From contig JAJPIO010000017.1 of NCBI GenBank assembly GCA_021324735.1, positions 1 through 64,000 of the forward strand: DNA of 64,000 bases. Reading direction: 5' to 3'. This DNA is from Bacteroidota bacterium (GTDB taxonomy: Bacteria; Bacteroidota; Ignavibacteria; Palsa-1295). Position 1 is the stretch's first letter, and each line of letters begins with the position of its first letter. Below, piece by piece: positions 27,716 through 51,542 of this stretch. The notes beneath the pieces were generated by a model. It was not told the origin of the DNA, did no database searches, and saw nothing but the letters and a program-made list of their open reading frames with translations. Made by a program: the position numbers and the translations under genes.

Positions 27716-29452
27716 TTATTTCCGAACCAACACCCACGCTCCGGCCCGAATGGGGTCGAGAGTGGTGTCGGTGTTTGAGGGAAGTCCCGAAGGACGATAA
27801 CATTGATACACGTTAAATCTCGAGAGAGGTAACGAGCGGATGAACGGTGGGGTGCTTTCGGCAGAAATTTTCTCGAGGATCGGCTCTCCGGCTATATCCA
27901 TTAGTCCGGATTGCATGATGAGAGCATCTCCGGTTCGTACCGTATCGCTGGTGAGGTAATTAATTGCCGGAGCGTGTGGAAGCGCATTATCGACGTCCCG
28001 AACGATGTGGGCGGAGTCACGAAATTCAAATGGGTGCAGCAGTATTCTTTTAATGCCCCATCGCCGCGCCATCGTGCGTATTTCCTGCACTCCGTAGGAT
28101 GTCCACTCGTCGGAGTAAGGTATTGCCGACCATTCGAAATAATTATTGCGCGCGCATTCGCCATCCAAATTACCGCGAACAGCCCGGGAATAATGCTGCG
28201 TAAATCCGAGGTAGTAAGCGCCGACCGGCTCCGATATAAGCCAGAATCCGCGTGCTCCTCGTTGCTCTAATTGCAATACCGACCTTGCAAGTGATGTTCG
28301 ATCGACATCGTTTGACAAATAATCGAAATAAGCGGTGTACGCTTGTACTGTTCCAACGATAAACAATACGGCAATAAGGGCCGATGCAATTCGCCACAGG
28401 ATCTTCTCCGGCAATGCGCGTGCAACTCGCCACATTTCCAGAACGACCATCGTAAGCAGGATGCAGCCAATTGGTACGGTGATGAGTAAATATCGCTCGA
28501 AGGTCCGCCCGAGCAGAACAAGGGTAATAAAGTTAAGCACGGCGAATACGACGAGTTGCCCGATCACCCTTCCTTCCCGTCCTTTTACTCGAAATGCTAT
28601 TAGTAGTGCTGCGATAAGAAGCACTTCGGTCGCCTGGAATACAACGAGATGTAATTTCGAAAAATAGTACTGTGCCGCCCAGACGATATTATACGCTCCG
28701 CCTTTATCGAGAAAGGCGCCCAGCCAGACGGGGGCATCGTACGGCCAGATAAGCAGGGTGACGATCGCTCCGGCTGTCATTGCAATAAAGCCAACGAGGG
28801 CTGCGCGAACAGTATAACGGCCCATCACCGTACCGGCAACAAGCCACAAGGCACCAGGGACGACCGCATTATACTTCATCAAAAATGCCGCAGCCCACAA
28901 CAGGAAAACTTCGAGCAACCGCCACCGGATCGTTCGATCCAGTGCTAACCGATCGAATGCGATCCATCCGACGAGGATAAAGAAGACTTGAAACGTGTCG
29001 GCAAAAAGAATGCGATTGAAGGCAACGGCGAACGGGTGAAGCGCGAAGAGAAGAGCCGATACCCCTGCGATACGACGATCGAACAGGCGGAGCGCTAACC
29101 AATACACTGCCGAGATCGAAGCTATTCCGAAGAGGGCAGCTGGAAGGCGGACGAGTGCGTCATTCGACAGCCCGTGCAAACCGATAAGCTGTGCCACCAT
29201 CCAGACGAACGGAGCGTTCGATATCGCATCCCACATCGGGGTGTGGTTGCGCAGTATATCGCGAGCGCCCACGGCGACGAACGACTCGTCGAGGAGTAAC
29301 GAATGAGTACCAAGCGCGACAAGCCGTACGACAGCTCCGAGAATAAGAGCGAGCACGACCGGCCAGTGCGTGGCAACCGGCGATCGTAACGATGAGAGTC
29401 GCTGCTTCGTAATGATCGTAAAAGATTGTTGGGCGAGTTCGGGGTACGCCAC
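27716..29452 (-). CDS. GT39/ArnT-like GT-C glycosyltransferase
   Basis: 578 residues, 11-12 membrane segments, then a periplasmic C-terminal part. In the first external loop LLLDESFVAVGARDIL carries the Asp-Glu pair typical of GT39/GT83 enzymes, followed by RLPAALFGIASISAVYWLALRLF, the PMT-like second segment. These enzymes use a polyprenyl-phosphate sugar as donor and glycosylate an extracytoplasmic acceptor. It is the last minus-strand member of the GT-C region, divergent from the next gene with a 74-bp gap. Confidence 0.82.
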   Translation of the reverse strand: MAYPELAQQSFTIITKQRLSSLRSPVATHWPVVLALILGAVVRLVALGTHSLLLDESFVAVGARDILRNHTPMWDAISNAPFVWMVAQLIGLHGLSNDALVRLPAALFGIASISAVYWLALRLFDRRIAGVSALLFALHPFAVAFNRILFADTFQVFFILVGWIAFDRLALDRTIRWRLLEVFLLWAAAFLMKYNAVVPGALWLVAGTVMGRYTVRAALVGFIAMTAGAIVTLLIWPYDAPVWLGAFLDKGGAYNIVWAAQYYFSKLHLVVFQATEVLLIAALLIAFRVKGREGRVIGQLVVFAVLNFITLVLLGRTFERYLLITVPIGCILLTMVVLEMWRVARALPEKILWRIASALIAVLFIVGTVQAYTAYFDYLSNDVDRTSLARSVLQLEQRGARGFWLISEPVGAYYLGFTQHYSRAVRGNLDGECARNNYFEWSAIPYSDEWTSYGVQEIRTMARRWGIKRILLHPFEFRDSAHIVRDVDNALPHAPAINYLTSDTVRTGDALIMQSGLMDIAGEPILEKISAESTPPFIRSLPLSRFNVYQCYRPSGLPSNTDTTLDPIRAGAWVLVRK

Positions 29453-29526
29453 TTAGAATGCGTCCTTCAACCAAACACAAACGTTCAACTACGTTTCATC
29501 CGTAAATTAGTAGTAAAGAGTTTCCG

Positions 29527-31005
29527 TTGATCCGCTTGCCCACTAATACTCGCGCTTTCCGCTACTGGCCGTATGCCTACAGTGTGGTGTTGTTCGTAGC
29601 TTCCTCGCTCTCGCATTTCGCTATTCTGAGCAACGACGTTTTTCCTCTTCGCTGGCAAGCCGAGCGGCTCTCGTTCGCTCATCCCGAAACATTCTACAAC
29701 GGCTTTTTTCCGATCGGTTATCCGCTTGCGTTGCGGCTGGCCGAAGTCACCGGTAATCCGGTGCTCACCTTGCTTCTGGTGCAGATCGCTCTGGCGTCGC
29801 TGTATGCAATTCTTTCCTGGCGGCTGTTACGACAGGTCCTCCCCGAGAATGCGTCTTTGATCGCGCTTCCGTTCGTATTATTCGCGCCACAGGTTGTGCG
29901 ACCCATGCTAAGCCCCACTCCCGATTTTCTGGCGGCTCTTGCGGTGCTTTGGGGTTTTGTTTTGCTACTTTCTTCGCGAGGTAATAGAGCAGTATTATTC
30001 GCCGGGGCTGCATTTGGAATTGGATATTTATTTCGGAGTCATATCGTCGTCCTGGCGTGTGCGATCCTTCTCGTTCTCTTGGGGATGGAGCGTAAAAATT
30101 TACGGACCGTATTTTCTTTTGTGCTGGGCGTTCTCCCGTTCATTCTTTTGCAAGGCTTGGTGCAGGTGTGGTCTGGCCACGGATTTTTTGAGAATGCCCA
30201 GGTCTTCAATGTATGGAAGACGATCCATGGGATGGACTGGAACAACCCGCCCGACTTGCGCGGCAAAACGGTGCTGAGCATTATTCTCGATAACCCCATC
30301 GACTTTCTGCACGCGTGCTTCAACGGACTGATCGACCGTGCGGCGTTCATTTTGCCGCTGCTTATTTTTTTGATCGTGCAGGCCAGAACAGGTCGTGGGC
30401 GAAGAACGTGGGCAATTGTCGTCGCCGGATCGTTTCTTTATCTCGTGATCACTTCCGCCGGCAGCAGTCCTCGCGACGTAGCGGTGCTCATACCAGTCGT
30501 GGCGCTGTGTGCCATGTATATTGTGCAAGTCCTGCTGGAGCGATCGAGGCTCCTTCAGCGCACGGGACTCGTACTCGCCATCATAATCCTATCCATCATG
30601 GTTGGCCTTGGTGGGTTATTCTATTTCTCGAACGTATCGAGAGGGCGCATCGAACGGTATGCTGAGTTAGAAGATCGACTTGGCGTTCATTCCGAAGCAG
30701 ATGCAGAGCATATATACTCCGATGATTTCGATCTTTATTTTCCAGGATTACGCTATACAACGCCACGACAGTCCGGAGGATGGCCGGAGATCGGCCTGCC
30801 AGGGTATCTCGCTATGTATCCGCATATAAGTGATTTTCCTGCTAAAGCGGAGCATGCTGATCTCGTCCAGAATGGAATTGAGTATGCGATCTATCGCATA
30901 CCTCCCTATGACGGCCGTGGTTATGCGACGGTCCGAAGTGATTCGTTGCTCTTCCGATCAATCTATCGCACTCCGCTCCACGAGGTCTATCGCGTTCAAC
31001 GTTGA
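29527..31005 (+). CDS. Polytopic GT-C-like glycosyltransferase
   Basis: 492 residues, about 11 membrane segments. The first loop carries PETFYNGFFPIGYPLALRL, a pattern seen in bacterial GT-C-like membrane proteins. A C-terminal non-membrane part (about 380-492) has a small fold with HIYSDDFDLYFPGLRY. The start is a TTG; no in-frame ATG lies near the N-terminus. It is the only plus-strand member of the region and ends 10 bp inside the convergent gene. Donor and acceptor unknown. Confidence 0.7.
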   Translation: MIRLPTNTRAFRYWPYAYSVVLFVASSLSHFAILSNDVFPLRWQAERLSFAHPETFYNGFFPIGYPLALRLAEVTGNPVLTLLLVQIALASLYAILSWRLLRQVLPENASLIALPFVLFAPQVVRPMLSPTPDFLAALAVLWGFVLLLSSRGNRAVLFAGAAFGIGYLFRSHIVVLACAILLVLLGMERKNLRTVFSFVLGVLPFILLQGLVQVWSGHGFFENAQVFNVWKTIHGMDWNNPPDLRGKTVLSIILDNPIDFLHACFNGLIDRAAFILPLLIFLIVQARTGRGRRTWAIVVAGSFLYLVITSAGSSPRDVAVLIPVVALCAMYIVQVLLERSRLLQRTGLVLAIIILSIMVGLGGLFYFSNVSRGRIERYAELEDRLGVHSEADAEHIYSDDFDLYFPGLRYTTPRQSGGWPEIGLPGYLAMYPHISDFPAKAEHADLVQNGIEYAIYRIPPYDGRGYATVRSDSLLFRSIYRTPLHEVYRVQR

Positions 31006-32543
31006 ATTGGAACAGGCGGCTTCAAACCGCTGCCGGGCTCACTCGAACGACGCGATATTGAGGTTTCCAGATCCGCCCAATATTTACCCTTAGGATCGAG
31101 CAGAAGAAGGAGAGGGTATGGGAAAGCTTCGATCGTAGCAGCGCTCACAAATTCGCTATCGCGAGCCACGCCGTACGCATCTTCGACCAGGCTGTAATGA
31201 CCGGCGCTATCGCTCCCGATCGGAAGCAGCATTAGGTCAGGATGTTCCTGGCGTACGACATCGGCTCGTTCGCTTCTGGTGCGTGCGTGTGCGATCTTCG
31301 TATCGTTCAGGCCAAAAAGATCGAGATGCCGAACTCCCGAGCGGTAGACCACATATCCGGCATCCCCATACGCAAGCGTAATAGAATCGAAATGTGGTAA
31401 TGCTTTTAGTTCGATGACGATCTTATCCATGCTGGCGTCCCACACGTCCTCATGCGCTTGGAGCGATTGCCGCGTCCGCGGGCTTTCGAGCACTGTTACG
31501 ATATGCAAGACAGCAAGAAACGCCGCAAGAAATGCGAACGAAGTGCGGCGAAGCCGATGAGAAAGATCGAATATCCCGACAGCACCGGTAATACACAACA
31601 CCGCAAAGACCGGCCACAGAAATCGGTCGTACAGTCCCTCGAGCGGGAGCACAAAAAGATAAAATACCAGGAGGAATATTGCCCACGAAGAGGAGAGGAG
31701 CAGGACGCGATCGTATCGCAATCGGGCTCCGAGCGATGCAATAATTAGTATAATGGAGGAGGTGAAAAAAAGACGCACATATTGAAGGCCCGGGAAGTGT
31801 GCGCTCGACTCGCTTAGCACTTTGACATAAAACGCATTGGGAAGAAGCGAGCCAAAATAACTATATTTCCAAACAGCATAGAGGGCCGTGGGAACGACGA
31901 AGGCGAGAATAAACCGCAGAGTGATCCTCTTCCACTCGGTACGAACGTTCGCAACGCTTACAATAATGATAAGTAACGCTAATGCTGCCCCCTCCGGGCG
32001 AGTAAGTGTAGCGAGAAATGATGCAATAAATGCGAGCGTGATCCGTTTGTGGGCAGTGAAGAAGATCGCGAGAATGATGAACAGGACGAAGACACTCGTC
32101 TCCATGCCACTCATGGCATTGATCCACGTGAGCGGCGTGAGCCAGTAAAACAAAACGGCAAGCAGGCCAGCATACTGATTGCGGAGAGTAGCGACAATAT
32201 TATAGATCAGGATCCCGCTGATCACTGTCGAGGCGAGGCCAAACGCTTGTGATGCGGCTAGAAGGTGATGAGTAAAAAAGCGCGACACCGCAAGTAATAG
32301 AACGAATAAAAAATTGGTAAAGCCTTCCGTAGGCGGACCACCAATATTCCAGACCAACCCGTCGCCAGAGGCAAGGTGCTCCGCATACCGAAATGATATG
32401 AATGTGTCATCGAACGGAAACCGCAGGCGGTATTGCCAAAGGACCGCTGCTATCGCAACCCCAGCAAGTGCAAGCCACCATTCTAATCGTTTCCAGTTCA
32501 CTTCGCTCGAGGAAATTTGAATAAGAGAAGCGTGTCCTTCCAA
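30996..32543 (-). CDS. GT-C glycosyltransferase resembling actinobacterial AftB
   Basis: 515 residues, about 11 membrane segments. FPFDDTFISFRYAEHL, read with GDGLVWNIGG and EGFTNFLFVLLL, matches the first-loop signature of AftB-like arabinofuranosyltransferases and related GT-C proteins, including the Asp-Asp pair. The C-terminal domain includes SITLAYGDAGYVVYRSGV and RHLDLFGLND, also seen in that group. Similarity is by motif and does not imply an arabinose donor. It overlaps the upstream gene by 46 bp, so its true start may be a little further in. Confidence 0.75.
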   Translation of the reverse strand: MEGHASLIQISSSEVNWKRLEWWLALAGVAIAAVLWQYRLRFPFDDTFISFRYAEHLASGDGLVWNIGGPPTEGFTNFLFVLLLAVSRFFTHHLLAASQAFGLASTVISGILIYNIVATLRNQYAGLLAVLFYWLTPLTWINAMSGMETSVFVLFIILAIFFTAHKRITLAFIASFLATLTRPEGAALALLIIIVSVANVRTEWKRITLRFILAFVVPTALYAVWKYSYFGSLLPNAFYVKVLSESSAHFPGLQYVRLFFTSSIILIIASLGARLRYDRVLLLSSSWAIFLLVFYLFVLPLEGLYDRFLWPVFAVLCITGAVGIFDLSHRLRRTSFAFLAAFLAVLHIVTVLESPRTRQSLQAHEDVWDASMDKIVIELKALPHFDSITLAYGDAGYVVYRSGVRHLDLFGLNDTKIAHARTRSERADVVRQEHPDLMLLPIGSDSAGHYSLVEDAYGVARDSEFVSAATIEAFPYPLLLLLDPKGKYWADLETSISRRSSEPGSGLKPPVPIQR

Positions 32544-34096
32544 TTCGAATGGTCAAAGTAATCGCGCCCCATATCTCCACTGGTGCCAATATAAGTCGCG
32601 ACCAGTTGTGATGAACGCTTTACGGCCTGGTAAAAGGGATCATCTTTCGGCCGGATCTTGGGATAAGTAGGCGAATTGTAAAGCATGATATAATTTACAT
32701 GCTCCTGGGCAAAAAGCGAATCGAGCGGCTGTTCCCGGATCGGAAAAGAAATGAAGTGATCGGTCATCACTTGAATGCTGGTATCATCCGATAGGCGTGC
32801 AAGAGTGACCGGCTCCGTAACGACGCATGGTTTATCAGGGCCGCTCTCTGCGCGCAGATCAGCCTTTATCATCGCCACGCCTTCCTTATTAGATCGGTCG
32901 ATGATCGAACCGCTTTCAAGGGCCGCGGAGCTATCGTGTATGGCAAAAACGAAAAAAACCGCCGAAAAAATAACGAGTGCGAATGACACCCATCGTACAT
33001 GTTCGATAATACGGGTGAGGCCAATCGCAAGAGCAACAAACAGCAAGGGCAGAATGTGAATGAGATAATTGATCTCCGTACCCTGCAAAAGAAGCCAGCT
33101 TAAAAAAACAATGGCGGTCGCTATTGCAAACGTATGAGTGTTGGACGTGCGGCGCCATGCGAGCGCAACTACAACGGGGAGCAAAAAAATCACGGGCGCT
33201 TCGAGCCAGAATTCTTTTAGGCGGATTAGAATATTCGCGACCTGAACGGATCTCGAAAATGGCCGAAAGATCGGAATGGAAGTAAGAACGTCGTTAAACT
33301 GAACGTGGCCAGTGGAATGCGCGAATAGTGCAAGGTTACCGGTGGATGTATAGTAGGCGCCAATCAGTAAGGCCAATGCAACGAGAGCGCCCGAGATCGC
33401 TGACACGATCGTATTAATATGTCTCAAGCCATCCATTCGAACGAAAAAGAAGATGGCAACTGGCACAAGTAACGTGAGCAGATGAATCGAGGACGTTACC
33501 GCAAGCACGGTAACGATCACACCATAGCCAAACCACCATTTTGAGCTATGCTCTCTTTTCTTCCATGCTTCCTGCGTAAGGATACCAACGAATAGCAGTA
33601 TAGTAAGACCAGCCAGAATATCAGGCCGTGCCGAGTGACTTGAAAAGAAGAAGGATCTTGTGCACGCGAGTAATAGTATGGAGGAGGCTGACAAAAAACG
33701 CGATGCACCTAATCGACGAGCGATAATAAAAAGCGCTATCAGCAAGCCCGCCGAAAAAAATGCCGTTACCATCCTTCCGACCACGACGATATTATGCCCT
33801 GCTAGCCAAACAGGAATACCGTAGAGCACGGAAGAGAGCCACGTCATGCTAAGCACCATGCCTTTGCCGTGCTGTAATACCGAGCCCAGGGCGAGGGGAT
33901 ATCGTACGACACCGGTAGTAATTTGTTGGCGTGCCTCGGACATAAGCCAGGTCTCATCGCCAAACCAACGGAGGGAATTTGGTTGGGGAAAAACAGCAAC
34001 CGAACGTAATTGAGTGATGAACACAACGATCGTCGCCACCACGAGCGCAGAGGATAGCACTCGCTCCCATCGCCGTTCGATCCGTGGTTCAGTCAT
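32498..34096 (-). CDS. GT-C-like family A membrane protein, copy 1
   Basis: 532 residues, about 10 membrane segments. Family A motifs: NSLRWFGDETWLM in the first external loop (GDE as likely catalytic acid), LALGSVLQH, VGRMVTAFF, and FFFSSHSARPDIL in the next loop. The periplasmic tail holds IQVMTDHFISFP, NYIMLYN and a terminal KDTLLLF. The same motifs occur in the genes at 34089, 35686, 37335 and 41874. It is probably a polyprenyl-phosphate-sugar-dependent transferase. It begins with ATG, overlapping the upstream copy by 8 bp. Confidence 0.72.
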   Translation of the reverse strand: MTEPRIERRWERVLSSALVVATIVVFITQLRSVAVFPQPNSLRWFGDETWLMSEARQQITTGVVRYPLALGSVLQHGKGMVLSMTWLSSVLYGIPVWLAGHNIVVVGRMVTAFFSAGLLIALFIIARRLGASRFLSASSILLLACTRSFFFSSHSARPDILAGLTILLFVGILTQEAWKKREHSSKWWFGYGVIVTVLAVTSSIHLLTLLVPVAIFFFVRMDGLRHINTIVSAISGALVALALLIGAYYTSTGNLALFAHSTGHVQFNDVLTSIPIFRPFSRSVQVANILIRLKEFWLEAPVIFLLPVVVALAWRRTSNTHTFAIATAIVFLSWLLLQGTEINYLIHILPLLFVALAIGLTRIIEHVRWVSFALVIFSAVFFVFAIHDSSAALESGSIIDRSNKEGVAMIKADLRAESGPDKPCVVTEPVTLARLSDDTSIQVMTDHFISFPIREQPLDSLFAQEHVNYIMLYNSPTYPKIRPKDDPFYQAVKRSSQLVATYIGTSGDMGRDYFDHSNWKDTLLLFKFPRAK

Positions 34097-35696
34097 GGAT
34101 GCTGTATAGCTGCAGGGTGTCGGGCGATCCTAAGTTTGCCTCGAAATACGAGCGGCCAATATCGGTGAAATAACCGGGGCGTTCCCAAAGCGGCGTACCT
34201 ATGCGGTGCAATGCATCTGAGATCGGCTTCACTTCACGCATATAATCCGGCTTGATCGAACTTCGATAAATAAGAACGTATCGCACACCCTCTTTATGAA
34301 GAAGAGAGTCAACGCTCATCGAAGTATCCGGAAATTCGATAAAATGTGTCGTCATTAGGCGCACGTTGGAGTCCCGCAAAACCTCATGCACTGCCGGATT
34401 GAATGCGAGCACCAACGGCTTCGTCGAATCAGCTTGTTCGATCTCATTTAACGCTGCGCCGACCGCCTGATAATTGGAGGTCATGAGGCGATATCCACGG
34501 CCATGTGGTCCGGGCATATCAGCAAGCGAAAATGTAAATAATGCAAGTCCGCCAAGCGCCACGAGCGGAATTCTCCAATATTCGGGAATAAAACGAGCGA
34601 ATACTGCAACTATTGCCAGACTCATGACCGGCAAAATATAGATCAGGTAGCTCGTCGGCGCTGAGCTTTCAAATTCAAACCATGCAAACAGCGTAGCCAG
34701 TATCAACACGGCTTTGGGACCAAGCCGTACGCTTTGCTTCCTCAATAAGGCCAAGATCGTAATGAGGGCAATGAATGCGCATGCAATGACATACCCCATT
34801 TCTAACGTCGTAATAGCCTTCCAACGCTGAATAAAGTTAGCCGTTTGTACAGAACGGGAATAGATACGCAGTGCAGGAATATCGTGGACGTTAAGGGCAA
34901 AGGCATTACTGGTGTACGTTCCAAACAGTGTAGCCTGCCCTCGAAGCGCTGTAATCGCAATGAGAACCGCAAGAAATACCAGGACACCACCAACATAGGC
35001 TCCCACAACGTTGATCTTACGACTCTCCGCCCTGTACAGAATGAACAAAATAGAAGAGATCGAAAGGGCGAGCGTTACATGGACAGTTACCAGTAACGTT
35101 GCTGCAATAAGTAACCCCAGAATAAAAGCACTCTTTGCGGTAAGGGGCCTCTCTCGTTGCAATAAAAGGTATAGACCGATAACTATTGCAAGCGCTGTGA
35201 GAATATCGTAGCGAGCCGAATGACTTGTAAAAAGAAACGAACGAGAGGTAACGAGAAGTAGCGTACCAAAGATAGCGAGAACGCGGTCGGCGGTCGATCT
35301 TCTAATAAACTCATACACGACAACGAGCACTGTGAAGGCCAGGATCGCCGTAACAGTGCGCCCGAGCAGAACGATATCCATTGCTGCCGGTGGGACGAAC
35401 GCTGCAGGCACGCCGTAAAATAGCGCCGGTATCCACATGTTACCAAAGAGCAGACCGCTGCCATGGGCAAGGGATGAACCGAGCGCATAGGGATGCTGAA
35501 AAACACCGCGCAATATCTGCGTCCGAAACTCGAGCATAAGCCAGCTTTCATCCCCCCACCACAGATAGGAATCGGGAATGGGCGTCGAATAGAGCGAGCG
35601 AAGCTCCAGCATGAATGCAGCCGAAGCAAGCGTCAGCAGTGCGAAGAAGACGGCTTCTTCGCTTTTAAGCAGAATGGATCTTACTTTATCGAGCAA
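34089..35696 (-). CDS. GT-C-like family A membrane protein, copy 2
   Basis: 535 residues. Family A motifs: PDSYLWWGDESWLM, YALGSSLAHGSGLL, LGRTVTAIL, FLFTSHSARYDIL; tail VRLMTTHFIEFP, YVLIYRSS and DTLQLYS. Its start is a TTG 11 bp inside the upstream copy, with no better start nearby. About 10 membrane segments, then a tail of 120-140 residues. The tandem position between copies 1 and 3 shows growth by duplication, although divergence between copies is large (visible identity mainly in motifs). Confidence 0.72.
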   Translation of the reverse strand: MLDKVRSILLKSEEAVFFALLTLASAAFMLELRSLYSTPIPDSYLWWGDESWLMLEFRTQILRGVFQHPYALGSSLAHGSGLLFGNMWIPALFYGVPAAFVPPAAMDIVLLGRTVTAILAFTVLVVVYEFIRRSTADRVLAIFGTLLLVTSRSFLFTSHSARYDILTALAIVIGLYLLLQRERPLTAKSAFILGLLIAATLLVTVHVTLALSISSILFILYRAESRKINVVGAYVGGVLVFLAVLIAITALRGQATLFGTYTSNAFALNVHDIPALRIYSRSVQTANFIQRWKAITTLEMGYVIACAFIALITILALLRKQSVRLGPKAVLILATLFAWFEFESSAPTSYLIYILPVMSLAIVAVFARFIPEYWRIPLVALGGLALFTFSLADMPGPHGRGYRLMTSNYQAVGAALNEIEQADSTKPLVLAFNPAVHEVLRDSNVRLMTTHFIEFPDTSMSVDSLLHKEGVRYVLIYRSSIKPDYMREVKPISDALHRIGTPLWERPGYFTDIGRSYFEANLGSPDTLQLYSIHD

Positions 35697-37338
35697 GGAC
35701 GGGCAGCCGGTATAATATCAGGGTATCGATAGCACTCGTATCGCTATCCAAAAACGTTGCAGGATTGAAATAATCCCGGTGAACGTCGAAGAGAATCCCG
35801 CTTTTTTGAAGTATGACACTTCCAATACTATCAGCGATCGGTTTCAGGTCGTGATAATCGAGCGAATAATCCGAACGATCGCGTGCTTTATACAGCAGAA
35901 GGTATTGTACCGGAATGGATTCTAATACATCGGCGAGTGGACGTTTCGATACCGGAAAGCTCACCAGGTGAGCGGTGATAAGGCGAACATTAGGTTGATG
36001 CTCGAGGTAAGCGATGGCCGGATTCTGAGCCAGCACAGTGGGCCTGGCCCCGGAAGTGGTATCGATCGCTTGTACAACAGCGTGAAGCGCCGCCTTATTG
36101 TTGTTCTCTATAATTGTAGCCGTTGCCTTGGCGGTGACTGCATCGCTTATCGAACAGTAGCAGAGCAGTATTCCTAAGCCGGTTGCGATCCATTGAGAGA
36201 GCCTGGCTTTATTAAGCCTTGATCCCACAGCAATAGTAAAGGCGAGGATGAAAAGCGGCAACACGTGAACATAGTAATAGAGGGCAGGGCTTTGAAACAG
36301 AAGCCAGCTAATTGCTATTACGATCGCTGACCCAAAGATAAACGAAGTGCCAGAGGTTACCGGATGTTGCCTGCGCTTTGAGAAGATAATGATGACCGCC
36401 CCTATTAAGAAAATAAGAAATTGAGGAGCTTCGGACCATAACCCTTGCACACGTTCCAGAATATTTGCAACCTGTACCGAACGGGAGAACGGCCGCAAAA
36501 TAGGCAAGCCGCTAATGACGCTTTGAAATTGATTGGACGCGATTGACGGACTGTATAGCGAAACAGGCGCTCCTGAAAGAGCATAGATCGTTAGCAACAG
36601 TGCAAGCACGATCACAACGCCACCCAGTGCCGCTACGATCACTATTGGATGATGTAACGCCCGAAAGCGCCAGAGGGTATAGATCGAAAGCAGTGCAAGG
36701 AGTGTGAGCAAGTGAATAGAAAGCGTTGCAAAGAGCAGCGCAATGGTACCGTAAAAGAAGAACCATCCCGCGCCTGGTATCCAACGATCCTGACGCAATA
36801 GATCATACCGCGAAGATAAATACCACACGAAAGCAAGCACGGCAACGCCAGCGGCTATATCGAGGCGTGCTGCATGGCTCGCGATAAAAAAACTCCGAGT
36901 CGTAACGAGAATAAGAATTGCCAATAACGCAAGCGCTCGCTCTACTTCGAAGCGCCGAAGGACTCGATATAATACCGCTATCAATATCAGGGATAACAGG
37001 AACGTGATGGTCCTGCCAACGGAGACAATGCTATAGGAGGATGGTACGAGCGATGCCGGAATTCCATAGATTCCGGCGGCGAGCCACGAGTTACCGCGTA
37101 TCAACCCATTTGTGATCGCTACACTGGAGCCTAAAGCGGTAGGAATATGCGCATAACCATCGTGAACTTCGGCGCGTAGCTCCAGCATTTGCGGCGTTTC
37201 GTCTCCCCACCAACGGGCGCTATCTGGTTGAGGGAAAATATAGAGCGAACGAGCCTGAAATAGGAGAACGAGTGCGATCATTACTGCCAGTAATACGGCA
37301 GTGATCTCAAACTTATTTCCATATTTCTGGGACATCAC
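35686..37338 (-). CDS. GT-C-like family A membrane protein, copy 3
   Basis: 550 residues. Family A motifs with changes: PDSARWWGDETPQM (the usual Trp after GDE-T/S is Pro), TALGSSVAITNGLI (the His of the ALGS-x3-H motif is absent), VGRTITFLL, FFIASHAARLDIA; tail VRLITAHLVSFP, YLLLYKA, DTLILYR. It may therefore differ in acceptor. Start GTG 37338 or the ATG directly after. It overlaps the stop of copy 4 (GTGA/TGATG), so the two are translationally coupled. Confidence 0.72.
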   Translation of the reverse strand: MMSQKYGNKFEITAVLLAVMIALVLLFQARSLYIFPQPDSARWWGDETPQMLELRAEVHDGYAHIPTALGSSVAITNGLIRGNSWLAAGIYGIPASLVPSSYSIVSVGRTITFLLSLILIAVLYRVLRRFEVERALALLAILILVTTRSFFIASHAARLDIAAGVAVLAFVWYLSSRYDLLRQDRWIPGAGWFFFYGTIALLFATLSIHLLTLLALLSIYTLWRFRALHHPIVIVAALGGVVIVLALLLTIYALSGAPVSLYSPSIASNQFQSVISGLPILRPFSRSVQVANILERVQGLWSEAPQFLIFLIGAVIIIFSKRRQHPVTSGTSFIFGSAIVIAISWLLFQSPALYYYVHVLPLFILAFTIAVGSRLNKARLSQWIATGLGILLCYCSISDAVTAKATATIIENNNKAALHAVVQAIDTTSGARPTVLAQNPAIAYLEHQPNVRLITAHLVSFPVSKRPLADVLESIPVQYLLLYKARDRSDYSLDYHDLKPIADSIGSVILQKSGILFDVHRDYFNPATFLDSDTSAIDTLILYRLPVLAR

Positions 37339-43595: not shown

Positions 43596-44551
43596 CCACG
43601 GTTCTTGCTGTACCAGTTGATCGTCTCTTCCAGACCTTGCTCGAACGGTCGTCCCGGTTTGATACCGAGTACTGTCGCGGCTTTTTCGGTGGAAGAAATG
43701 TGCCGGTCTACTTGGCCGGGGCGGTTGCCAATATGCGAAATAAGATCGGCTGGTTTTTTCAGGATGTCGAGTACGAGCTTTGCGATCGCAAGCACATCCA
43801 GTTCAAAGCCGCTGCCTAAGTTGAACACTTCCCCTTTGATCTTTTCGACCGGTGCATGCATTACTTTGTCGATGCGCTCGCAGGTATCCTGCACGTAAAG
43901 CCAATCCCGGATTGCACCGCCGTTGCCGTGTACCGTGAGTGGCTCATCGAGCAAGGCACTCGTAATAAAGCGGGGAATAACCTTTTCCAGGTGCTGCTTC
44001 GGCCCGTACTGATTGAATGGCCGTACGATACAAGCAGGAATGCCGTAACTTGCAATATAGGAATACACCAGACGGTCTGCACCTGCTTTGGCACTGGCAT
44101 ACGGCGAAAGTGGGTTGAGCGGATGCTCTTCGGTCATCGGAGCCGAATGAGCGGTACCATACACTTCGCTCGTCGAAATATGAATGAACCGGTCTAAGTC
44201 CTTTTTTCGCACGACGGCATTTGCGACGGCTTGCGTACCGAGCACATCGGTCACATAAAAAATCTTATTATCGAAGATTGAACGAGCGACGTGGCTCTCC
44301 GCAGCAAAATGCACGACAATATCCGACCGATGGACGAGCTGGCTTACCAGATCATCGTTCGTGACGTTGCCATACCAGAATTCGAATCGCTTCGATGACT
44401 TGATGTCGTCCGGAATATTATCGGGCGAACCGGCATAGGTCAGCGCATCGAGTACAATGATATGATAATCCGGATACTTCCGATAGAGGTATTCGAGGAA
44501 ATTGCTTCCGATAAATCCGGCGCCGCCGGTAATAAGAATGGTGCGGGGCAT
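43523..44551 (-). CDS. NDP-sugar 4,6-dehydratase (RmlB/LegB-like SDR)
   Basis: 342 residues, extended short-chain dehydrogenase fold. GGAGFIGSNFLEYL binds NAD; HFAAESHV, HISTSEVYGTA and the Y-x3-K catalytic pair in SPYASAKAGAD follow, then RPFNQYGPKQ and RDWLYVQD. In true dTDP-glucose 4,6-dehydratase (RmlB) the central motif is TDE; here it is TSE, as in GDP-mannose- and LegB-type dehydratases. So the substrate may be another nucleotide sugar. It makes a 4-keto-6-deoxy sugar, a precursor for 4-amino sugars, which fits the WecD-like GNAT domain encoded next to it. 22 bp separate the two genes. Confidence 0.83.
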   Translation of the reverse strand: MPRTILITGGAGFIGSNFLEYLYRKYPDYHIIVLDALTYAGSPDNIPDDIKSSKRFEFWYGNVTNDDLVSQLVHRSDIVVHFAAESHVARSIFDNKIFYVTDVLGTQAVANAVVRKKDLDRFIHISTSEVYGTAHSAPMTEEHPLNPLSPYASAKAGADRLVYSYIASYGIPACIVRPFNQYGPKQHLEKVIPRFITSALLDEPLTVHGNGGAIRDWLYVQDTCERIDKVMHAPVEKIKGEVFNLGSGFELDVLAIAKLVLDILKKPADLISHIGNRPGQVDRHISSTEKAATVLGIKPGRPFEQGLEETINWYSKNRGWWEKLLWMRHVPIITESGKVEYH

Positions 44552-44573: not shown

Positions 44574-46568
44574 TTACGACGTAACAGAGCTCGTCCAGTG
44601 AAACGTGGCGAGGTTCTCTAAAATATCACAGCCCAAATGCAGCCACGTATTGATAACACGATACGTGGAAGATTGGGTTTTAGTTAAAATTCCAGAAGCG
44701 CCGGTCGATCGGGCGTAATCGATGGCGGCAATAATAAGCGCTCGGTAAATGCCGCGACCGCGGGCTTCGGGGGCTACCGCATTCAGCGTATCCCGTAGCC
44801 AGATCTCGTTTGCGAGCGGCGCCATTGGCTCAATGGCAACATAACCGCAGGGCGAGCCATCTACCTCGGCCACCAGCACGAGGGCATGTCCTTCCGCATG
44901 ACGCCGGGCCAGGTTTATGAACCACTCACGAAACACTCCCTGGGCTCGTTCCTGCGATATCGTAGGCTCCAGAAAGAACCGGTCCTGTATCATCGAGTGG
45001 TCGCTGTAGGATATTTCCGATATATGCGCTAACGGGTCCACATCCTCCGGCTGCATGGGCCGGACGAGCAAGCCATCATTAAAAATGAGGCCTCGCTCGG
45101 TGGGTTGGTAATGCGTATGCGAAAGAATGTGCTCGAATTTATGCGCTCGAGCACCAAGGGTTACCAGCAGATCGACAATATGAAACCCGGCATTTTCGAA
45201 CGCGCGAGAAACGAAGAGATCCTCATTCGAAACGCGTGCGTCGATCAGGTGCAGATCGCGCTCCCTGGCGAAGGATGTTGCATCGCGAAGTGCGCTCGTG
45301 AGTGGACCGATCCGATGCATATCGACCGCTTCGCCAATGGAATTAGCGTATAAAATTCTCCCGACGGGCACTCCGAGCACTTTGGTATCCCATTCCAGCT
45401 CCGAAAGAATGCAGGCTGCCTCGATACCTCTGCTGCCTTGACTCAAAAAAACATAGGGATTACTCTTCTGCCACGATCGTAAATGGTAATCCGCTATCGT
45501 GTGTGACGTTTCGCCGGTAAAGATGCGAGCGAGCGGTAAGTGGCTGTCGCTCGAGATGATCGTAAGAAGATCTTCCTTGATATCCGGCGATAACGCGGAG
45601 AGGCGAGCCGGCGAGGCGGAATGTCGGCGCAACGGTTCTTCGCTGCCAAGATCCTTCAGCAGATAAAGCGGGCGACCTTGCGCTTCCCCGTAAATCCGGC
45701 TGATATACTCACCCATGAGTCCAATAACGATGAGTTGCAGAGCGCCGAAACCGAAGATCGCGATCATGAGCGAAGCATATCCGGGGACCGTATATGCTCC
45801 GAGCAGCTTACGAACGAATACGTAGAGGACACCCAGAACTGCAAACGCTGCTGCCGTCAAGCCTGATATGGTTGCGAGTTGCAGCGGTGCCGCACTAAAG
45901 CTGGTCGCAGTGCTCAGTGCAAGCTTAAGGAGACGCCAGAGAGAATATTTTGTCTCGCCGGCAAAGCGCTTACCATGCTCGACCGGCACACTGGTTTGGC
46001 GATACCCCAACCAGCTCACGAGCCCTGGCAGGTAGCGGGCCTTCTCCCGCATCTTACGCAGATCGCGTGCAACCGATGCTCGCATAGCACGGAAAATGCT
46101 GGAATTTAAAGATACTTCTGCGCGCGCAACGCTATTCATTATCCAAAGGAATAGCTTGCTCGAAATATTCTTATACCACTTGAACTGCCGCGTGACGCGC
46201 TCGCCCCAAACGACATCGTAACCTTCGTCCAGCTTCTCGAGTAGCTTGTGGATCTCTTCGGGCTGGTCCTGAAGGTCGGCGTCCATCATAATGATGACGT
46301 CGCCACGAGCTTGATCGAGACCAGCGGTAAGCGCAATGTGATGCCCGAAATTTCGGGTAAAGCTAAAGCTGCGGATGTGATCGGGATCTCGCTTTTCGAG
46401 GCCCATCATGATCGCTAGCGAGCCATCGCGAGAGCCGTCGTCGACGAGAATGATCTCATAGGAACGGCCAAGCGCCTCGAGCGCAGCCGTTAAGCGACGC
46501 TCTAACTCGGGAAGAACTTCTTCCTCGTTATAGACGCCGATCACAATTGATAACTCTACAGAATTCAC
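44574..46568 (-). CDS. Fusion: polyprenyl-phosphate sugar synthase (GT2) and RffC/WecD-like GNAT acetyltransferase
   Basis: 664 residues in one frame with GTG start. Residues 1-310 are a DPM1/ArnC-like GT2: IVIGVYNEEEVL, LVDDGSRDGS, NFGHHIALTAGLDQA, MDADLQDQPEE (DxD metal site), then two C-terminal membrane segments and the GEYISRIYGE exit helix. Residues 340-664 form an acetyltransferase: an RffC-like N-part with LEWDTKVLGVPVGRI (the W-D-x3-x-G-x3-GRI signature) and a GNAT core with EARGRGIYRAL as acetyl-CoA loop. RffC acetylates dTDP-4-amino-4,6-dideoxygalactose in enterobacterial common antigen. Together this suggests loading and N-acetylation of an amino sugar on a lipid carrier. No 4-aminotransferase is in the window. 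Confidence 0.85.
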   Translation of the reverse strand: MNSVELSIVIGVYNEEEVLPELERRLTAALEALGRSYEIILVDDGSRDGSLAIMMGLEKRDPDHIRSFSFTRNFGHHIALTAGLDQARGDVIIMMDADLQDQPEEIHKLLEKLDEGYDVVWGERVTRQFKWYKNISSKLFLWIMNSVARAEVSLNSSIFRAMRASVARDLRKMREKARYLPGLVSWLGYRQTSVPVEHGKRFAGETKYSLWRLLKLALSTATSFSAAPLQLATISGLTAAAFAVLGVLYVFVRKLLGAYTVPGYASLMIAIFGFGALQLIVIGLMGEYISRIYGEAQGRPLYLLKDLGSEEPLRRHSASPARLSALSPDIKEDLLTIISSDSHLPLARIFTGETSHTIADYHLRSWQKSNPYVFLSQGSRGIEAACILSELEWDTKVLGVPVGRILYANSIGEAVDMHRIGPLTSALRDATSFARERDLHLIDARVSNEDLFVSRAFENAGFHIVDLLVTLGARAHKFEHILSHTHYQPTERGLIFNDGLLVRPMQPEDVDPLAHISEISYSDHSMIQDRFFLEPTISQERAQGVFREWFINLARRHAEGHALVLVAEVDGSPCGYVAIEPMAPLANEIWLRDTLNAVAPEARGRGIYRALIIAAIDYARSTGASGILTKTQSSTYRVINTWLHLGCDILENLATFHWTSSVTS

Positions 46569-46667: not shown

Positions 46668-48146
46668 TTAGCGCGGGACGAATATAAATTCGGGTCGGGT
46701 CACTCCATCGGCCACACGGGTCAGATAAACGTTTGGCTCTTGCAGCATCCGGCCATCTAATAAGTAATCCTGTACCGAGTCAGTTCTAAAAATATCGCTC
46801 TCTTCCATGATGATAGCCGAAAATCGATGGTTCGCATAGGCGCTGTCAAATTCGGAATGCAACCGAGCAGCAGTTGCATCCTGCATACGGAGTACGTCGA
46901 TAGCAGCAAGAAGATGGGCATGGGACGGCTTTCCCGCTTGTCGCGTAATGTATCCGTGGTATGGTATCATGACCTCGCCGGGCATCGCTGCGAGCTTATG
47001 CATGAATGCGTCTCCACCCTGCCGCTGATGAGCGCTCGCAATAAGCATCTTCTCGCTCAACGGATTGAAATACAGCGCAGCGAACTGAAATAAGATCGGC
47101 AAATACGCATAGCGAGCAAATCGTGGTTGAATGGATCGTATCTCGCTCAGAGCGATCGGTAAGAGTGGAAGTCCAAACGCCACGTATGGCATCAGGACAT
47201 TCCTATACCCACCTTCATTTGCAAGACTCATTGCGCCTGCGGCTAACCCACCGAGCATAAACAATGCAATAAGGCCGGTATCGCTCGACCAGAACTGACG
47301 CTTTGCACCATTATTCAAAAACAACAACGTGAGGAAGGCAAGCGAACACACGGCGAGCGGCCCTAACGCATAATAAGGAAATACGTCGAACAAACGCAAA
47401 TATTGGATATCGGCCCGTTTGGCGCCGGGGATCTTAAAAAGATAATAGGTCGACCAGCCGCCGGTCGAGCGATCGAGGATGAGCAAGGAGACTGTTGAAA
47501 GCACGATCGCCGTCATGACAAAGGCAATACCGTGTTTGCGGTCCTTAAGCCAATACCACAGCGCAAGTGCCGGCAAAAAGAAGATCGCTTGTTGCTTTGT
47601 GAGAAATGCTACCGTAAAAAGAATGGCACTTACAAAAACGCCCATCCAACCACGAATGAATATCGCCACGAATGCTAATAGTACCAGCAAAGCCGTAAAG
47701 AACGCATCATTACGGACGATATCGAAATAGAATCCGGTAAGATGATAGCTTGCGAAATAGAGCGCTGTTGTGATAAGGCCCAGCAGTAGCGACCTGGTGA
47801 CATAGCGCACAACATGCCCCAACGTAAGTGCAGTGAACACCGTAGCTATGATCGATACCAATCTTCCGGCGAAAAAACTTATGCCGAATATTTTCATCGC
47901 CAAGGCAACGGCATAGTAATACAGTGGCGGATAAAGCCACGCCACAAAGTCAATAGACGGAGTGGTATAGATCGGCTTTGCCTCGAGGATGCGGACAACA
48001 TGGTCCATCATGGCACCTTCCATCCATTCTACCTCGTAAGGATACAGGAGGCGCATAATGGAAAGCGCGAGGACCAGCACCACAAAAGCAGCTCCGATCA
48101 GGATCGTAAGCCACCGGGTTATTCGCTCGAACGTATCAGACTTCAC
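46668..48146 (-). CDS. GT-C-like family B membrane protein, copy 2
   Basis: 492 residues, about 11 membrane segments. Same family as 38897-40357 with the matching motifs LYPYEVEWMEGAMMDH, IYTTPSIDF, PPLYYY, GRLVSII, FYFDIVRNDA, FLTKQQAIF, IPYHGYI, AGKPSH, RFSAIIMEE and PEFIFVP. The start is a GTG in a GTGA overlap with the methyltransferase gene. The copies differ more in the tail than in the membrane part, so they may share a donor but differ in acceptor; this is inference. Confidence 0.72.
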   Translation of the reverse strand: MKSDTFERITRWLTILIGAAFVVLVLALSIMRLLYPYEVEWMEGAMMDHVVRILEAKPIYTTPSIDFVAWLYPPLYYYAVALAMKIFGISFFAGRLVSIIATVFTALTLGHVVRYVTRSLLLGLITTALYFASYHLTGFYFDIVRNDAFFTALLVLLAFVAIFIRGWMGVFVSAILFTVAFLTKQQAIFFLPALALWYWLKDRKHGIAFVMTAIVLSTVSLLILDRSTGGWSTYYLFKIPGAKRADIQYLRLFDVFPYYALGPLAVCSLAFLTLLFLNNGAKRQFWSSDTGLIALFMLGGLAAGAMSLANEGGYRNVLMPYVAFGLPLLPIALSEIRSIQPRFARYAYLPILFQFAALYFNPLSEKMLIASAHQRQGGDAFMHKLAAMPGEVMIPYHGYITRQAGKPSHAHLLAAIDVLRMQDATAARLHSEFDSAYANHRFSAIIMEESDIFRTDSVQDYLLDGRMLQEPNVYLTRVADGVTRPEFIFVPR

Positions 48147-48889
48147 TTTTTACGCAATACGCAAAACAGGGACGAGCCGAACGGTGGATGATACCACGTT
48201 CTCTCGCTCGGAGCTACAAACAGATCGAGCAGCAGTTTATTCATCCGTGGCGATGGAATACGGTCTTCTGCACGAGATTGCATTCGCAAAATTTTAGAGA
48301 GCTTCCGCACCGTAAGGATAGGGAGAAAAGCAAAAGAATTAGCATAATCGAAGTAGAGCGTATCGAACCCTGTTTTGAATGGCGCCAATACTTCGCTCAT
48401 CATTCGCTTTGAGTAACGCCGATAATGTCCGAGTGAGACGTCCCAATCGCTCCAGAGGCTCATAAAGGCCGGGACATTAATGATGAGCAATCCGCCGATA
48501 GCGGTTATGCGCATGAGCTCGGAAAACGCAAGTTTATCGTCTTCGACGTGCTCTAATACATCCAGGGCGATAGTGACTTTGCTCGTATCATCATTAAGCG
48601 GCAGATTGAGGATCGAGCCCGCCAGCAAGTTCGTACCTTTGCGTTCCAGAGCCAGGCGCCGCGCCTCCTCCGAGTATTCAATGCCGATCACGGATACCCC
48701 GTGGTGCTCGTATGCACCTTTTAGCTCGCGCACTAACTCTCCGGTACCGGCGCCAGCATCTACGATCCGATCGCCGCTGGCGAGAGTGACCGCACGCTCG
48801 ATCCAATGCCGAACAAGCACCCGCTTGCCTTTATAAAACCAATGCTCGCGCTCGACCTTCTCCAGCGCATCATACTCGTGGATCTGCAT
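48143..48889 (-). CDS. Class I SAM-dependent methyltransferase
   Basis: 248 residues. HWFYKGKRVLVRHW is followed by motif I VDAGAGTGELV, the acidic end of strand 2 IGIEYSEEA, ALDVLEHVEDD (motif IV) and IGGLLIINVPA. This is the Methyltransf_11/23 fold. Enzymes of this shape (HWW/FY-x-GKR start) are often found beside GT2 genes of lipid-linked sugar pathways. It may methylate a sugar or a lipid carrier; the target is not known. It lies 10 nt downstream of the second GT2 gene and overlaps the family B gene. Confidence 0.83.
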   Translation of the reverse strand: MQIHEYDALEKVEREHWFYKGKRVLVRHWIERAVTLASGDRIVDAGAGTGELVRELKGAYEHHGVSVIGIEYSEEARRLALERKGTNLLAGSILNLPLNDDTSKVTIALDVLEHVEDDKLAFSELMRITAIGGLLIINVPAFMSLWSDWDVSLGHYRRYSKRMMSEVLAPFKTGFDTLYFDYANSFAFLPILTVRKLSKILRMQSRAEDRIPSPRMNKLLLDLFVAPSERTWYHPPFGSSLFCVLRKK

Positions 48890-48899: not shown

Positions 48900-49892
48900 T
48901 TATTCTTCGACCGATACCGACAGCACGCCTGGCGATGTTGCTATTGCGTTCGCATTCGTGCTTCGAATGATCTCGTTGACGACATAATGAGGGCGTTGCT
49001 TTACCTCATCATAGATTCGGCCTAAATATTCGCCGAGAATTCCGATCGAAATAAGCTGCACTCCTCCCAACATTAGTATTGCGACGGTGGGCGTAGTAAA
49101 ACCGACGACGACGTTAATATTTAATATGCGCATGACCAGTAAGAACAGTGCATACGCAAACGAAAAAATGCTGACGATAAACCCGAAGGTCCAGATAGCA
49201 CGGAGCGGTTTAAAACTAAAACTAAAGACTGCGTCGAACGCATAACGCATCAGGCGTCCGAACGTCTGCTTGGGTTCACCGGCAGCGCGTTCTTCACGAT
49301 CGTAGTATACGACGCCTTGATCGTAACCGACCCACGAGCGAAGCCCAGGGAAGAACCGATTCCGCTCTCGTAACAATAATACTTCGTTGACGGCTTTGCG
49401 ATCGAGCAGCCCAAAGACGCCGCTTCCGGTTTCCATTTTGAGATCGCTAACTTTAGCGAGCATTTTATGGAATGCGGCGAACATCATACCTTTTATCCCG
49501 TGCTCCGCACGCGACCGTCGCTGTGCTACGACGACCCGGCTTCCCTTCTTCCATGCTTGTACCAGTTCTGGAATGAGTTCAGGTGGGTCCTGCAGATCAC
49601 CATCCATGATGACGACAGCATCGCCTGCTGCATGTTCCAGCCCTGCCTGGATAGCCGGTTGATGACCGAAGTTGCGTGATAGATCAATGATGACAAGCCG
49701 AGGATCGCTTACTGCATGCTTCGCAAGCATTTCAAGCGACCGATCTCGTGAGCCATCGTTTATGAGCACCCATTCTGACGCCAGATCAAATTCACGCTCG
49801 AGCGAATCCATGACGTGAGTAACGCGCCGAACGAGTTCGTCGATCAACGCCTCTTCGTTGTATATCGGCATTACGATGGATAAGGAGCGCAT
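48900..49892 (-). CDS. Polyprenyl-phosphate sugar synthase-like GT2 glycosyltransferase
   Basis: 330 residues. DPM1/ArnC-type: IVMPIYNEEALIDEL, LINDGSRDRS, NFGHQPAIQAGLEHA, MDGDLQDPPEL (DxD), GSGVFGLLDR, and two C-terminal membrane segments ending in GEYLGRIYDEVKQRPHY. The enzyme would move a sugar from a nucleotide donor to undecaprenyl phosphate at the cytoplasmic face, giving the donor that GT-C enzymes use outside. Which sugar is unknown. It may lead the run of genes to the methyltransferase; 108 bp separate it from the GT-C gene upstream. Confidence 0.87.
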   Translation of the reverse strand: MRSLSIVMPIYNEEALIDELVRRVTHVMDSLEREFDLASEWVLINDGSRDRSLEMLAKHAVSDPRLVIIDLSRNFGHQPAIQAGLEHAAGDAVVIMDGDLQDPPELIPELVQAWKKGSRVVVAQRRSRAEHGIKGMMFAAFHKMLAKVSDLKMETGSGVFGLLDRKAVNEVLLLRERNRFFPGLRSWVGYDQGVVYYDREERAAGEPKQTFGRLMRYAFDAVFSFSFKPLRAIWTFGFIVSIFSFAYALFLLVMRILNINVVVGFTTPTVAILMLGGVQLISIGILGEYLGRIYDEVKQRPHYVVNEIIRSTNANAIATSPGVLSVSVEE

Positions 49893-49895
49893 AAA

Positions 49896-50003
49896 AAGCA
49901 GGGAATAGGTTTAGAAGCAGGGAATAGGGATCAGGTTTTATGTATGGGCGTTATTCTAAACTATAGCTTGAAAGCGAAGGCTTCGGGTACACCCTAAACC
50001 CTA
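49896..50003. repeat. Short direct repeats (AAGCAGGGAATAGG, CCCTAAACCCTAA) between genes
   Basis: AAGCAGGGAATAGG occurs at 49896-49909 and 49915-49928, with the related CCCTAAACCCTAA at 49992-50004 in the other orientation, all in a 108-bp gap. The gap has no gene. Similar TAGGG-type text (GTTTAGGGTTC) lies at 56287, after the alpha/beta hydrolase start. It looks like an interspersed microrepeat. Confidence 0.5.
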
Positions 50004-51542
50004 ACTTCGTCGCCTGTATAAAGTAAAAGCGCCGATCTTCGTTTCAGGCTCATAATTAGAAATGAGCCACTGACCAAGTTCTGTGAAGTCCTGCCTCAGG
50101 ATCTCATGCCCCAGCCGCCCTCCATAATATTGCCGAAACGCCTCAGGAGCATCACAAACAATAAAATAAAGCGGCTTTTGAGTTATCATGGCGTGAAGGT
50201 ATTCTTTGCGCCACGCTTTCTGGAATGGCTGCAAGGAGTCGCCTACCCCACGCATCGTGATAGCATGGAGCGTTTGGAATCGGCTGGCTGTAAGAAGTCC
50301 TACCATATATTGGGGGTAACTATAGGGCCCAAACATTTGGACGGTATCGCCAGGATGGGTATGCGCCTTTAAATAATCACCGACCTCTGTTTGTACGCGC
50401 ACTCCAAATTCGGGCGATGGTTCATACCGTTCGTAGGATCCTTCCAGAGAGTTAATCCGACCCTTTGCAATATCGAGCAGCACATGTTCGATCGTGTTTC
50501 CCCTTAGGGTTTGCAGGATAAAGAAGAATACGACGACGAACGGAAACGCTAGGCGCATTCCTTTCCAGCGAAGACTTAGCAGGTTGGTGATCTCAATCCA
50601 CCCAATGGACGAGACGAGCAAGAACAGCGTCATCGCAGGATGATAATGGTATACGCTGTGGCGATACAGAACAATCAGCGAAAGAACACTCGCGGCAAAA
50701 AGCGCCAGCCATAAATAGAGAGCGGTACGCTCGTTCTTCCATAAAAACCAGATACCGATCGCTACGGCAATTATTGACACCGCATAAAAGCGAATGGGCA
50801 CCCAAAAGCTAAAGGACGCACCTTCCCCACTATAGACTTTAGCGTTGAAGAGAATGACAGCATCCCAAAGATCTTTGAATCCGCCTATTGCAAGGTAGAC
50901 CCCAACAAATACAGCGAGAGTAAAAAGACATCCGGCCACAAATCGTATTGTTGGCTTGAGCGATCGTGGTTTCGTTCGCCAATCGGAGATCAAATACAAC
51001 ACTCCAAAGACCAACGCATAAGACGCATAGGTTGGTCGGAAAAGAAAGGCCAGCGCCGAAAGAAACCCGACGGCGACCGGTCGCTTTCGATCGAGCGCCA
51101 ACAACATCGCCCCGACCAGCATTATCGATACATACGTGTCGCGCTCGCCGGACATCCACAACCCTTGCTGAAGGTAATACAGGCTCGCAAGCAATGCTGC
51201 CAAGATCCCCGCTCTCAAACTATGCAACCGTTCGCCGAGGAGAATTAGCAAATAGCTTCCTAAAAGCTGAAGAACAATATCGAAAATATGAAATGCGAGC
51301 TGAGAATGGCCGCTTATGATAATTTGTGCAGCATGTATAAGAATAATACCCGGGAAATTCTGATCCCACGAGCCAATGTAAGGGAGGTGACCTTTTAATG
51401 CCAGATCGGCCATGTAGGCATACAGCGCATTATCGTTATTGAAAGGATAGGTGAGGGTGCACGCGAAGATGACCGCGCATCCCACGAGCGTCCAGAATAT
51501 TTTTGTACGGCGGGTATCTTTAACGGTGATCGTTGCCATCAT
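50001..51542 (-). CDS. GT-C-like family C membrane protein, copy 2
   Basis: 513 residues, about 11 membrane segments. It is paralogous to 40354-41877: FNNDNALYAYMADLALKGHLPYI, then SWDQNFPGIILIHAAQ, GERDTYVSIM and FRPTYAS. The tail has YKRM-like absence but shares the pattern YFIVCDAPEAFRQYYGG, LGHEIL and TLYRR. Start is two adjacent ATGs that overlap the upstream TerC gene by 23 bp. It is the first GT-C member when read along the minus strand. Confidence 0.7.
   Translation of the reverse strand: MMATITVKDTRRTKIFWTLVGCAVIFACTLTYPFNNDNALYAYMADLALKGHLPYIGSWDQNFPGIILIHAAQIIISGHSQLAFHIFDIVLQLLGSYLLILLGERLHSLRAGILAALLASLYYLQQGLWMSGERDTYVSIMLVGAMLLALDRKRPVAVGFLSALAFLFRPTYASYALVFGVLYLISDWRTKPRSLKPTIRFVAGCLFTLAVFVGVYLAIGGFKDLWDAVILFNAKVYSGEGASFSFWVPIRFYAVSIIAVAIGIWFLWKNERTALYLWLALFAASVLSLIVLYRHSVYHYHPAMTLFLLVSSIGWIEITNLLSLRWKGMRLAFPFVVVFFFILQTLRGNTIEHVLLDIAKGRINSLEGSYERYEPSPEFGVRVQTEVGDYLKAHTHPGDTVQMFGPYSYPQYMVGLLTASRFQTLHAITMRGVGDSLQPFQKAWRKEYLHAMITQKPLYFIVCDAPEAFRQYYGGRLGHEILRQDFTELGQWLISNYEPETKIGAFTLYRRRS

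Follow-up and report, generated by a model that had tools for sequence, protein, structure and literature searches.

A conserved cluster of twelve GT-C-type membrane transferases with two predicted lipid-sugar synthases in one genus of uncultured Kapaibacteria

A gene cluster of approximately 25 kb, encoding twelve different GT-C-type membrane transferases and two predicted lipid-sugar synthases, was identified within a window of 64,000 nucleotides (contig JAJPIO010000017.1 of assembly GCA_021324735.1, positions 1 to 64,000). The source genome (3.55 Mb, 19 contigs) is labelled G000 here and its sister genomes G001-G006; genes are named by their first coordinate in the window. The cluster was present in all seven genomes of this genus of uncultured Kapaibacteria, in the same order and with one-to-one orthologues throughout. 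It probably represents a single transmembrane glycosylation system of the multi-component kind, with unusually many transferases, in which lipid-linked sugars would be supplied to the GT-C proteins in the periplasm.

The twelve polytopic open reading frames (ORFs) encode 486-578 aa, each with 7-10 hydrophobic segments and a soluble C-terminal part. The initial annotation had read all twelve as GT-C-type proteins, and this was borne out in every case, through matches to PMT_2 or AftB, through paralogy or through fold; all were confirmed as members of the GT-C superfamily and are predicted transferases. The contrary reading, that these ORFs are not GT-C proteins, was rejected because of the same fold and sequence matches, namely those to PMT_2 and AftB and the structure matches of 34089 and 30996.

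Five of the proteins constitute family A, with approximately 30% identity between paralogues: A1 (32498-34096), A2 (34089-35696), A3 (35686-37338), A4 (37335-38900) and A5 (41874-43595). Pfam provided no real match for this family, only a weak, sub-cutoff hit to DUF2298 in A5 and a chance-level match to a phage coat protein in another member. A2 was the only one of the twelve to yield a confident AlphaFold model (pLDDT 85.4, pTM 0.87). This matched ALG9 and ALG12 (E ~5e-9 to 1e-8) and ArnT (5f15; Z 20.7 over 430 residues), as well as Pmt4, OST, AftB and Emb proteins (Z ~13-20); going by the model, family A has the GT-C fold. Residues W46, G48-D49-E50, H159, R162 and D164, in loops 1 and 2, were invariant in 29 of 29 A proteins, which, with paralogy and clade membership, also places A3, A4 and A5 in the family. 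In the A2 model the GDE motif directly precedes the first loop helix (residues 51-63), where the essential Asp of GT-CA enzymes is also found (PMC12041299). Modelling gave the GT-C core that the initial annotation had anticipated; loops 1 and 2 both hold invariant acidic residues.

Among the remaining seven transferases, PMT_2 scores exceeded the Pfam cutoff of 26.1 bits for five: 27716 (27716-29452; 38 bits), a single gene at the distal end of the run; 29527 (29527-31005; 42.6 bits), which is reversed within the conserved block; C1 (40354-41877; 39.4 bits); B2 (46668-48146; 28.3 bits); and C2 (50001-51542; 26.3 bits). B1 (38897-40357) scored 22.3 bits, below the cutoff, and was assigned by paralogy, being 39% identical to B2. 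Invariant residues were found at D55 and E56 (loop 1) and F150-D152 (loop 2) of 27716, and at N36, D37, P132 and D133 of 29527; families B and C retained E35/E37/E40 and D34 respectively, with acidic residues in both loops. The location of an acidic residue at the helix tip was placed on a model for family A alone. The last protein, 30996 (30996-32543, with a start likely near 32501), had no Pfam match. Its profile found AftB (9dlf) by hmmsearch (E 2.8e-5) in an alignment limited to residues 13-240, where the invariant D45-D46 aligned with the DD motif of AftB (D61-D62), of which D62 is catalytic (PMC12041299). Its own model was poor (pLDDT 64.6), and the 21 best Foldseek matches were all GT-C proteins; judged by sequence, 30996 is a distant AftB homologue. 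PDB sequence searches with the profiles of families A, B and C and of 27716 recovered no relative, and profile-profile comparisons between GT-C subfamilies were mostly weak, given shallow alignments, the best being A against C (74.8% probability).

Encoded with these transferases are two GT2 proteins, 44574 (44574-46568) and 48900 (48900-49892), both predicted to be polyprenyl-phosphate sugar synthases. The GT2 half of 44574 (residues 3-311) resembled the GtrB protein sll0501 (E 3e-71) and ArnC (E 7e-62), and was fused to a C-terminal, distantly WecD-like GNAT acyltransferase half (Acetyltransf_1 at 543-645) that had been overlooked in the initial annotation; full-length matches to this fusion were confined to the genus. 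The second synthase was PgfS/ArnC-like (PgfS 296.9 bits, below the equivalog cutoff) and 72-76% identical across the genus. The RmlB-like dTDP-glucose 4,6-dehydratase 43523 (43523-44551) scored 328.8 bits against TIGR01181 (cutoff 365.1); its nearest solved structures were RmlB enzymes, and identity across the genus was 88-91%. A methyltransferase (48143-48889; Methyltransf_11) that would depend on S-adenosylmethionine was retained in seven of seven genomes. The four family assignments made initially (two GT2 enzymes, a 4,6-dehydratase and a methyltransferase) thus stand, and two synthases of ArnC/GtrB type would fit the proposal that the locus is a lipid-carrier-fed arm acting outside the inner membrane.

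Eleven of the twelve polytopic ORFs lie on the minus strand, as do the synthase, dehydratase and methyltransferase genes; only 29527 is on the plus strand, where it breaks up the run. The one-strand arrangement reported initially was therefore largely accurate, while the 4-nt overlaps said to join the genes applied to five junctions (methyltransferase-B2, A5-C1, C1-B1, B1-A4 and A4-A3), with a sixth possible between A1 and 30996 given the alternative start. Elsewhere, genes overlapped by 8, 11 or 23 nt, by one longer stretch, or were separated by gaps of 10-108 nt.

The synteny foreseen in close relatives was recovered in all seven genomes, gene order being read in pieces where contigs end. 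Orthologues of 27716 were found in G001, G003, G004 and G005, as were those of 29527, likewise reversed; B2 and C2 were present in all seven. The sole optional element was the pair B1 and C1, both of which occurred in the cluster in G000, G003, G005 and G006 and were jointly absent from it in G001, G002 and G004 (three of seven). Each A paralogue corresponded to one clade of seven orthologues, four of the five being fully supported as labelled (100/100 for A1), and the clade of seven cluster A2 proteins reached 100/100 after two distant G000 copies were set aside. Since each paralogue forms its own clade across seven genomes, divergence of the copies predates the genus, and none has since been lost. 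pN/pS (the ratio of nonsynonymous to synonymous change) was 0.07-0.40 in comparisons of G001 and G002, where synonymous sites were near saturation, and the cluster genes are under purifying selection. That order and orthology are kept in seven of seven genomes, with such values, means that the cluster is not a chance assembly. Flanking genes differed among genomes, with the exception of TerC. Two divergent relatives of family A lay outside the cluster in G000 (G000:C3:28941-30557 and G000:C15:672435-674015; L035 and L036), and matches as strong as the first of these occurred in other genomes of the genus.

Beyond the genus, neither family A nor the cluster was found in any of 54 other genomes of the family and class (E 1e-10), and family A was found in none of 394 other genomes of the phylum (E 1e-15, with only the three best candidates scored per genome). 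When 84,980 species genomes were scanned with two patterns, all loci recovered lay on contigs equal in length to contigs of the genus. PMT_2 matches numbered 17-26 per genome within the genus versus 0-16 in 34 relatives, and G000 encoded at least 32 GT-C-type proteins when family A and 30996 are included. Searches of the open-licence literature turned up no account of such a cluster in Kapaibacteria.

In G003, an aminotransferase gene, a gene for a membrane protein of 692 aa and then a gene for a protein with an RNA recognition motif (RRM) directly followed the 27716 orthologue, and TerC stood at the opposite end, so that TerC and the RRM gene bracketed the entire cluster (L027). The family's other genera had TerC followed by hemerythrin and then the RRM protein gene (L070, L071, L072, L074 and L075), and the TerC-RRM interval is the probable insertion site. 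The aminotransferase (on G000:C19) was closest to the C4-acting enzymes ArnB and PseC and occurred in seven of seven genomes with 82-85% identity; no relative above 40% identity was found at E 1e-60 among 34 other genomes. The membrane protein, an orphan of approximately 692 aa with 12-15 hydrophobic segments, was likewise encoded by all seven, and a single weak match was obtained from beyond the genus. Its gene (L066:14220-16295 on G000:C19; L027:7750-9825; L068:10953-13034; L069:17057-19126) adjoined the aminotransferase gene or lay close to it in G000, G003, G004 and G005, and in G000 and G005 both genes, along with the RRM gene, were together on another contig. The two were adjacent in G000, G003 and G004; in G005 (L069:11261-16911) five genes lay between them. 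The simplest reading would be that the cluster, with the aminotransferase and 692-aa genes, originated in or entered the TerC-RRM interval and has since broken up in most species.

The 692-aa protein carried an invariant loop motif (D156, D168, E175 and YHD197-199) and was considered as a flippase or as a thirteenth GT-C protein; it had no sequence match in Pfam, NCBIfam or the PDB, nor any profile match to family A or 27716. TerC (51520-52365, minus strand; PF03741, 150.7 bits) was always adjacent to the cluster in this genus, on its upstream side next to C2, which raised the idea of a dedicated supplier of Mn2+ to the GT-C proteins, much as TerC proteins act for LtaS in B. subtilis (PMC10550928). 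The adjacency may be inherited from the insertion site, because in the family's other genera TerC adjoins genes for hemerythrin and RRM proteins and no GT-C genes; moreover, AftA, ALG6 and PimE are reported to be metal-independent, and AftB has no visible metal (PMC12041299). The idea was set aside on both counts and is kept only as a weak one.

Other features of the window lay outside the cluster. A single IS200-like Y1 transposase ORF (24965-25435) was found a few kb from the cluster end, and both flanking proteins, 25934-27679 and 58347-61040, carried C-terminal sorting tails of the type IX secretion system (T9SS), the latter with GH20-type domains also.

The mechanism that we infer for the system, including the identity of the sugars, the order of steps, flipping, a periplasmic acceptor and a single product, is as follows. 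In the cytoplasm, 43523 would make dTDP-4-keto-6-deoxyglucose from dTDP-glucose, which the genus-specific ArnB/PseC-like aminotransferase would convert to a 4-amino-4,6-dideoxyhexose. The bifunctional 44574 would N-acylate this sugar through its GNAT half and load it onto polyprenyl phosphate through its GT2 half, while 48900 would load a second sugar; the methyltransferase may act on one of them. Once the lipid-phosphate-sugars had been flipped across the membrane, 10-12 GT-C proteins would build or branch one surface glycan, each forming a different linkage or serving a different acceptor. The presence of 10-12 transferases with two evident donors suggests that the glycan is branched and uses sugars repeatedly, or else that there are several acceptors. 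Of the components of a 4-amino-4,6-dideoxyhexose pathway of the enterobacterial common antigen (WecD-WecE) type, an RmlB-like protein and the ArnB/PseC-like aminotransferase are present, with none reaching an equivalog cutoff.

Several observations weigh against this interpretation. The GNAT half of 44574 resembled WecD only weakly (26.6 bits, cutoff 219). The aminotransferase gene was unlinked from the cluster where it could be placed in G000, G001, G004 and G005. As 43523 is the sole close RmlB of its genome, it may also serve other dTDP-sugars. GtrA was absent from seven of seven genomes, and no flippase family was found by Pfam among the window proteins, a genome-wide search for MATE or Wzx not having been made. 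Finally, nothing in the cluster points to an acceptor.

A more ambitious version of this interpretation is possible but tentative: the whole glycan would be built stepwise in the periplasm from polyprenyl-phosphate monosaccharides, with one GT-C protein per linkage and neither Wzy nor ABC export. This would be the Gram-negative equivalent of arabinan assembly in mycobacteria, with an N-acylated amino-deoxyhexose as its basis. No Wzx, Wzy, ABC exporter or initiating phosphoglycosyltransferase family was detected among the Pfam-scanned window proteins, in agreement with the absence of the first three noted initially. A polysaccharide locus does exist elsewhere in the genome, at L077:1-20000 (G000:C17), with Wzy_C, one Polysacc_synt and a WbaP-type transferase. 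One 672-aa protein at that locus combined GT2, CoA_binding_3 and partial Bac_transf domains.

Because this separate Wzx/Wzy locus exists, the cluster might instead decorate a polymer made by other genes, a serious alternative although one that we think unlikely. The GT-C proteins would then assemble no glycan themselves but add side-branch sugars to a ready-made polymer, such as an O antigen or exopolysaccharide from that locus, as the Gtr (serotype conversion) and GT136 systems do (PMC11127046, PMC8035078), and the optional B1 and C1 pair does resemble variation in glycan structure. However, characterised decorators have approximately one GT-C protein per sugar rather than 10-12 conserved proteins (PMC11127046, PMC8035078), and the core ten are invariant even though orthologues are only ~40-70% identical between species, unlike serotype cassettes.

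Protein O-glycosylation, through PMT-like action on secreted or T9SS-exported proteins, is considered a good deal less probable. It would accord with PMT_2 homology, with Pmt4 being among the best structural matches, and with the T9SS tails encoded near the cluster (25934 and 58347). Yet PMT_2 also includes transferases that act on lipid A and on polymers, and the neighbour 25934 was not kept beside the cluster in other genomes. It is very improbable that the locus merely juxtaposes unrelated small glycosylation modules without a single product; two GT2 proteins, at least three GT-C families and one gene on the opposite strand could be read in this way, but gene order is uniform, reading frames overlap and the genes are jointly present in seven of seven genomes while their neighbourhoods have been reshuffled. 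That many of the polytopic proteins have the GT-C fold but serve as acceptor-binding or scaffold subunits is scarcely credible, for while family A is far in sequence from every named family and a review suggests that accessory proteins may act with small GT-C proteins (PMC8035078), all 29 A proteins share the catalytic-position Asp and an acidic residue in the second loop, and the other GT-C families have retained acidic residues as well.

The favoured interpretation, a single transmembrane glycosylation system, can be set beside known pathways. Multi-component systems such as GtrABC, CsbB-GtcA-YfhO and GT136 likewise combine a GT2 polyprenyl-phosphate-sugar synthase with periplasmic GT-C proteins and add to glycans outside the membrane (PMC8035078, PMC11127046); these have approximately one synthase and one GT-C protein, whereas the cluster has two and twelve, with a GNAT-fused synthase and no GtrA in the seven genomes. 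Mycobacterial arabinan assembly (AftA-D, EmbA-C) similarly uses several GT-C proteins with lipid-phosphate-sugar donors. The likeness to it drawn initially held for 30996, which shares the AftB DD motif, and failed for the donors, which would come from ArnC/GtrB-type GT2 enzymes and not from a UbiA/DprE route; in addition, the cluster belongs to a Bacteroidota envelope and has no proteins of Emb size with carbohydrate-binding (CBM) domains. The Arn pathway (ArnB-ArnA-ArnC-ArnT), which attaches 4-amino-4-deoxy-L-arabinose (L-Ara4N) to lipid A, has in common an ArnB-like C4 aminotransferase, N-acyl transfer and ArnC-like loading, and its ArnT was the best structural match of family A. In contrast to that pathway, the cluster has a dTDP-hexose dehydratase rather than decarboxylation of UDP-glucuronic acid (UDP-GlcA), a GNAT rather than a formyltransferase, many GT-C proteins rather than one, and no ArnD seen among its genes. 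The general plan is that of the multi-component systems, with Arn-like steps and one AftB-like enzyme; the cluster departs from it in the number of transferases, in having five GT-C paralogues that are sequence orphans and a GNAT-GT2 fusion, and in being restricted to a single genus.

These data suggest that the genus builds or decorates a surface sugar polymer outside the inner membrane with unusually many GT-C proteins. If so, this would be, to our knowledge, the largest GT-C set to occupy a single conserved locus, and an instance from beyond the actinobacteria of a glycan being built, or heavily decorated, outside the membrane. The five sequence-orphan paralogues, with their clean orthology, offer a natural series in which to follow changes in acceptor or linkage specificity, and the system, if correctly interpreted, would predict an N-acyl-4-amino-4,6-dideoxyhexose among the surface sugars of these uncultured Kapaibacteria.

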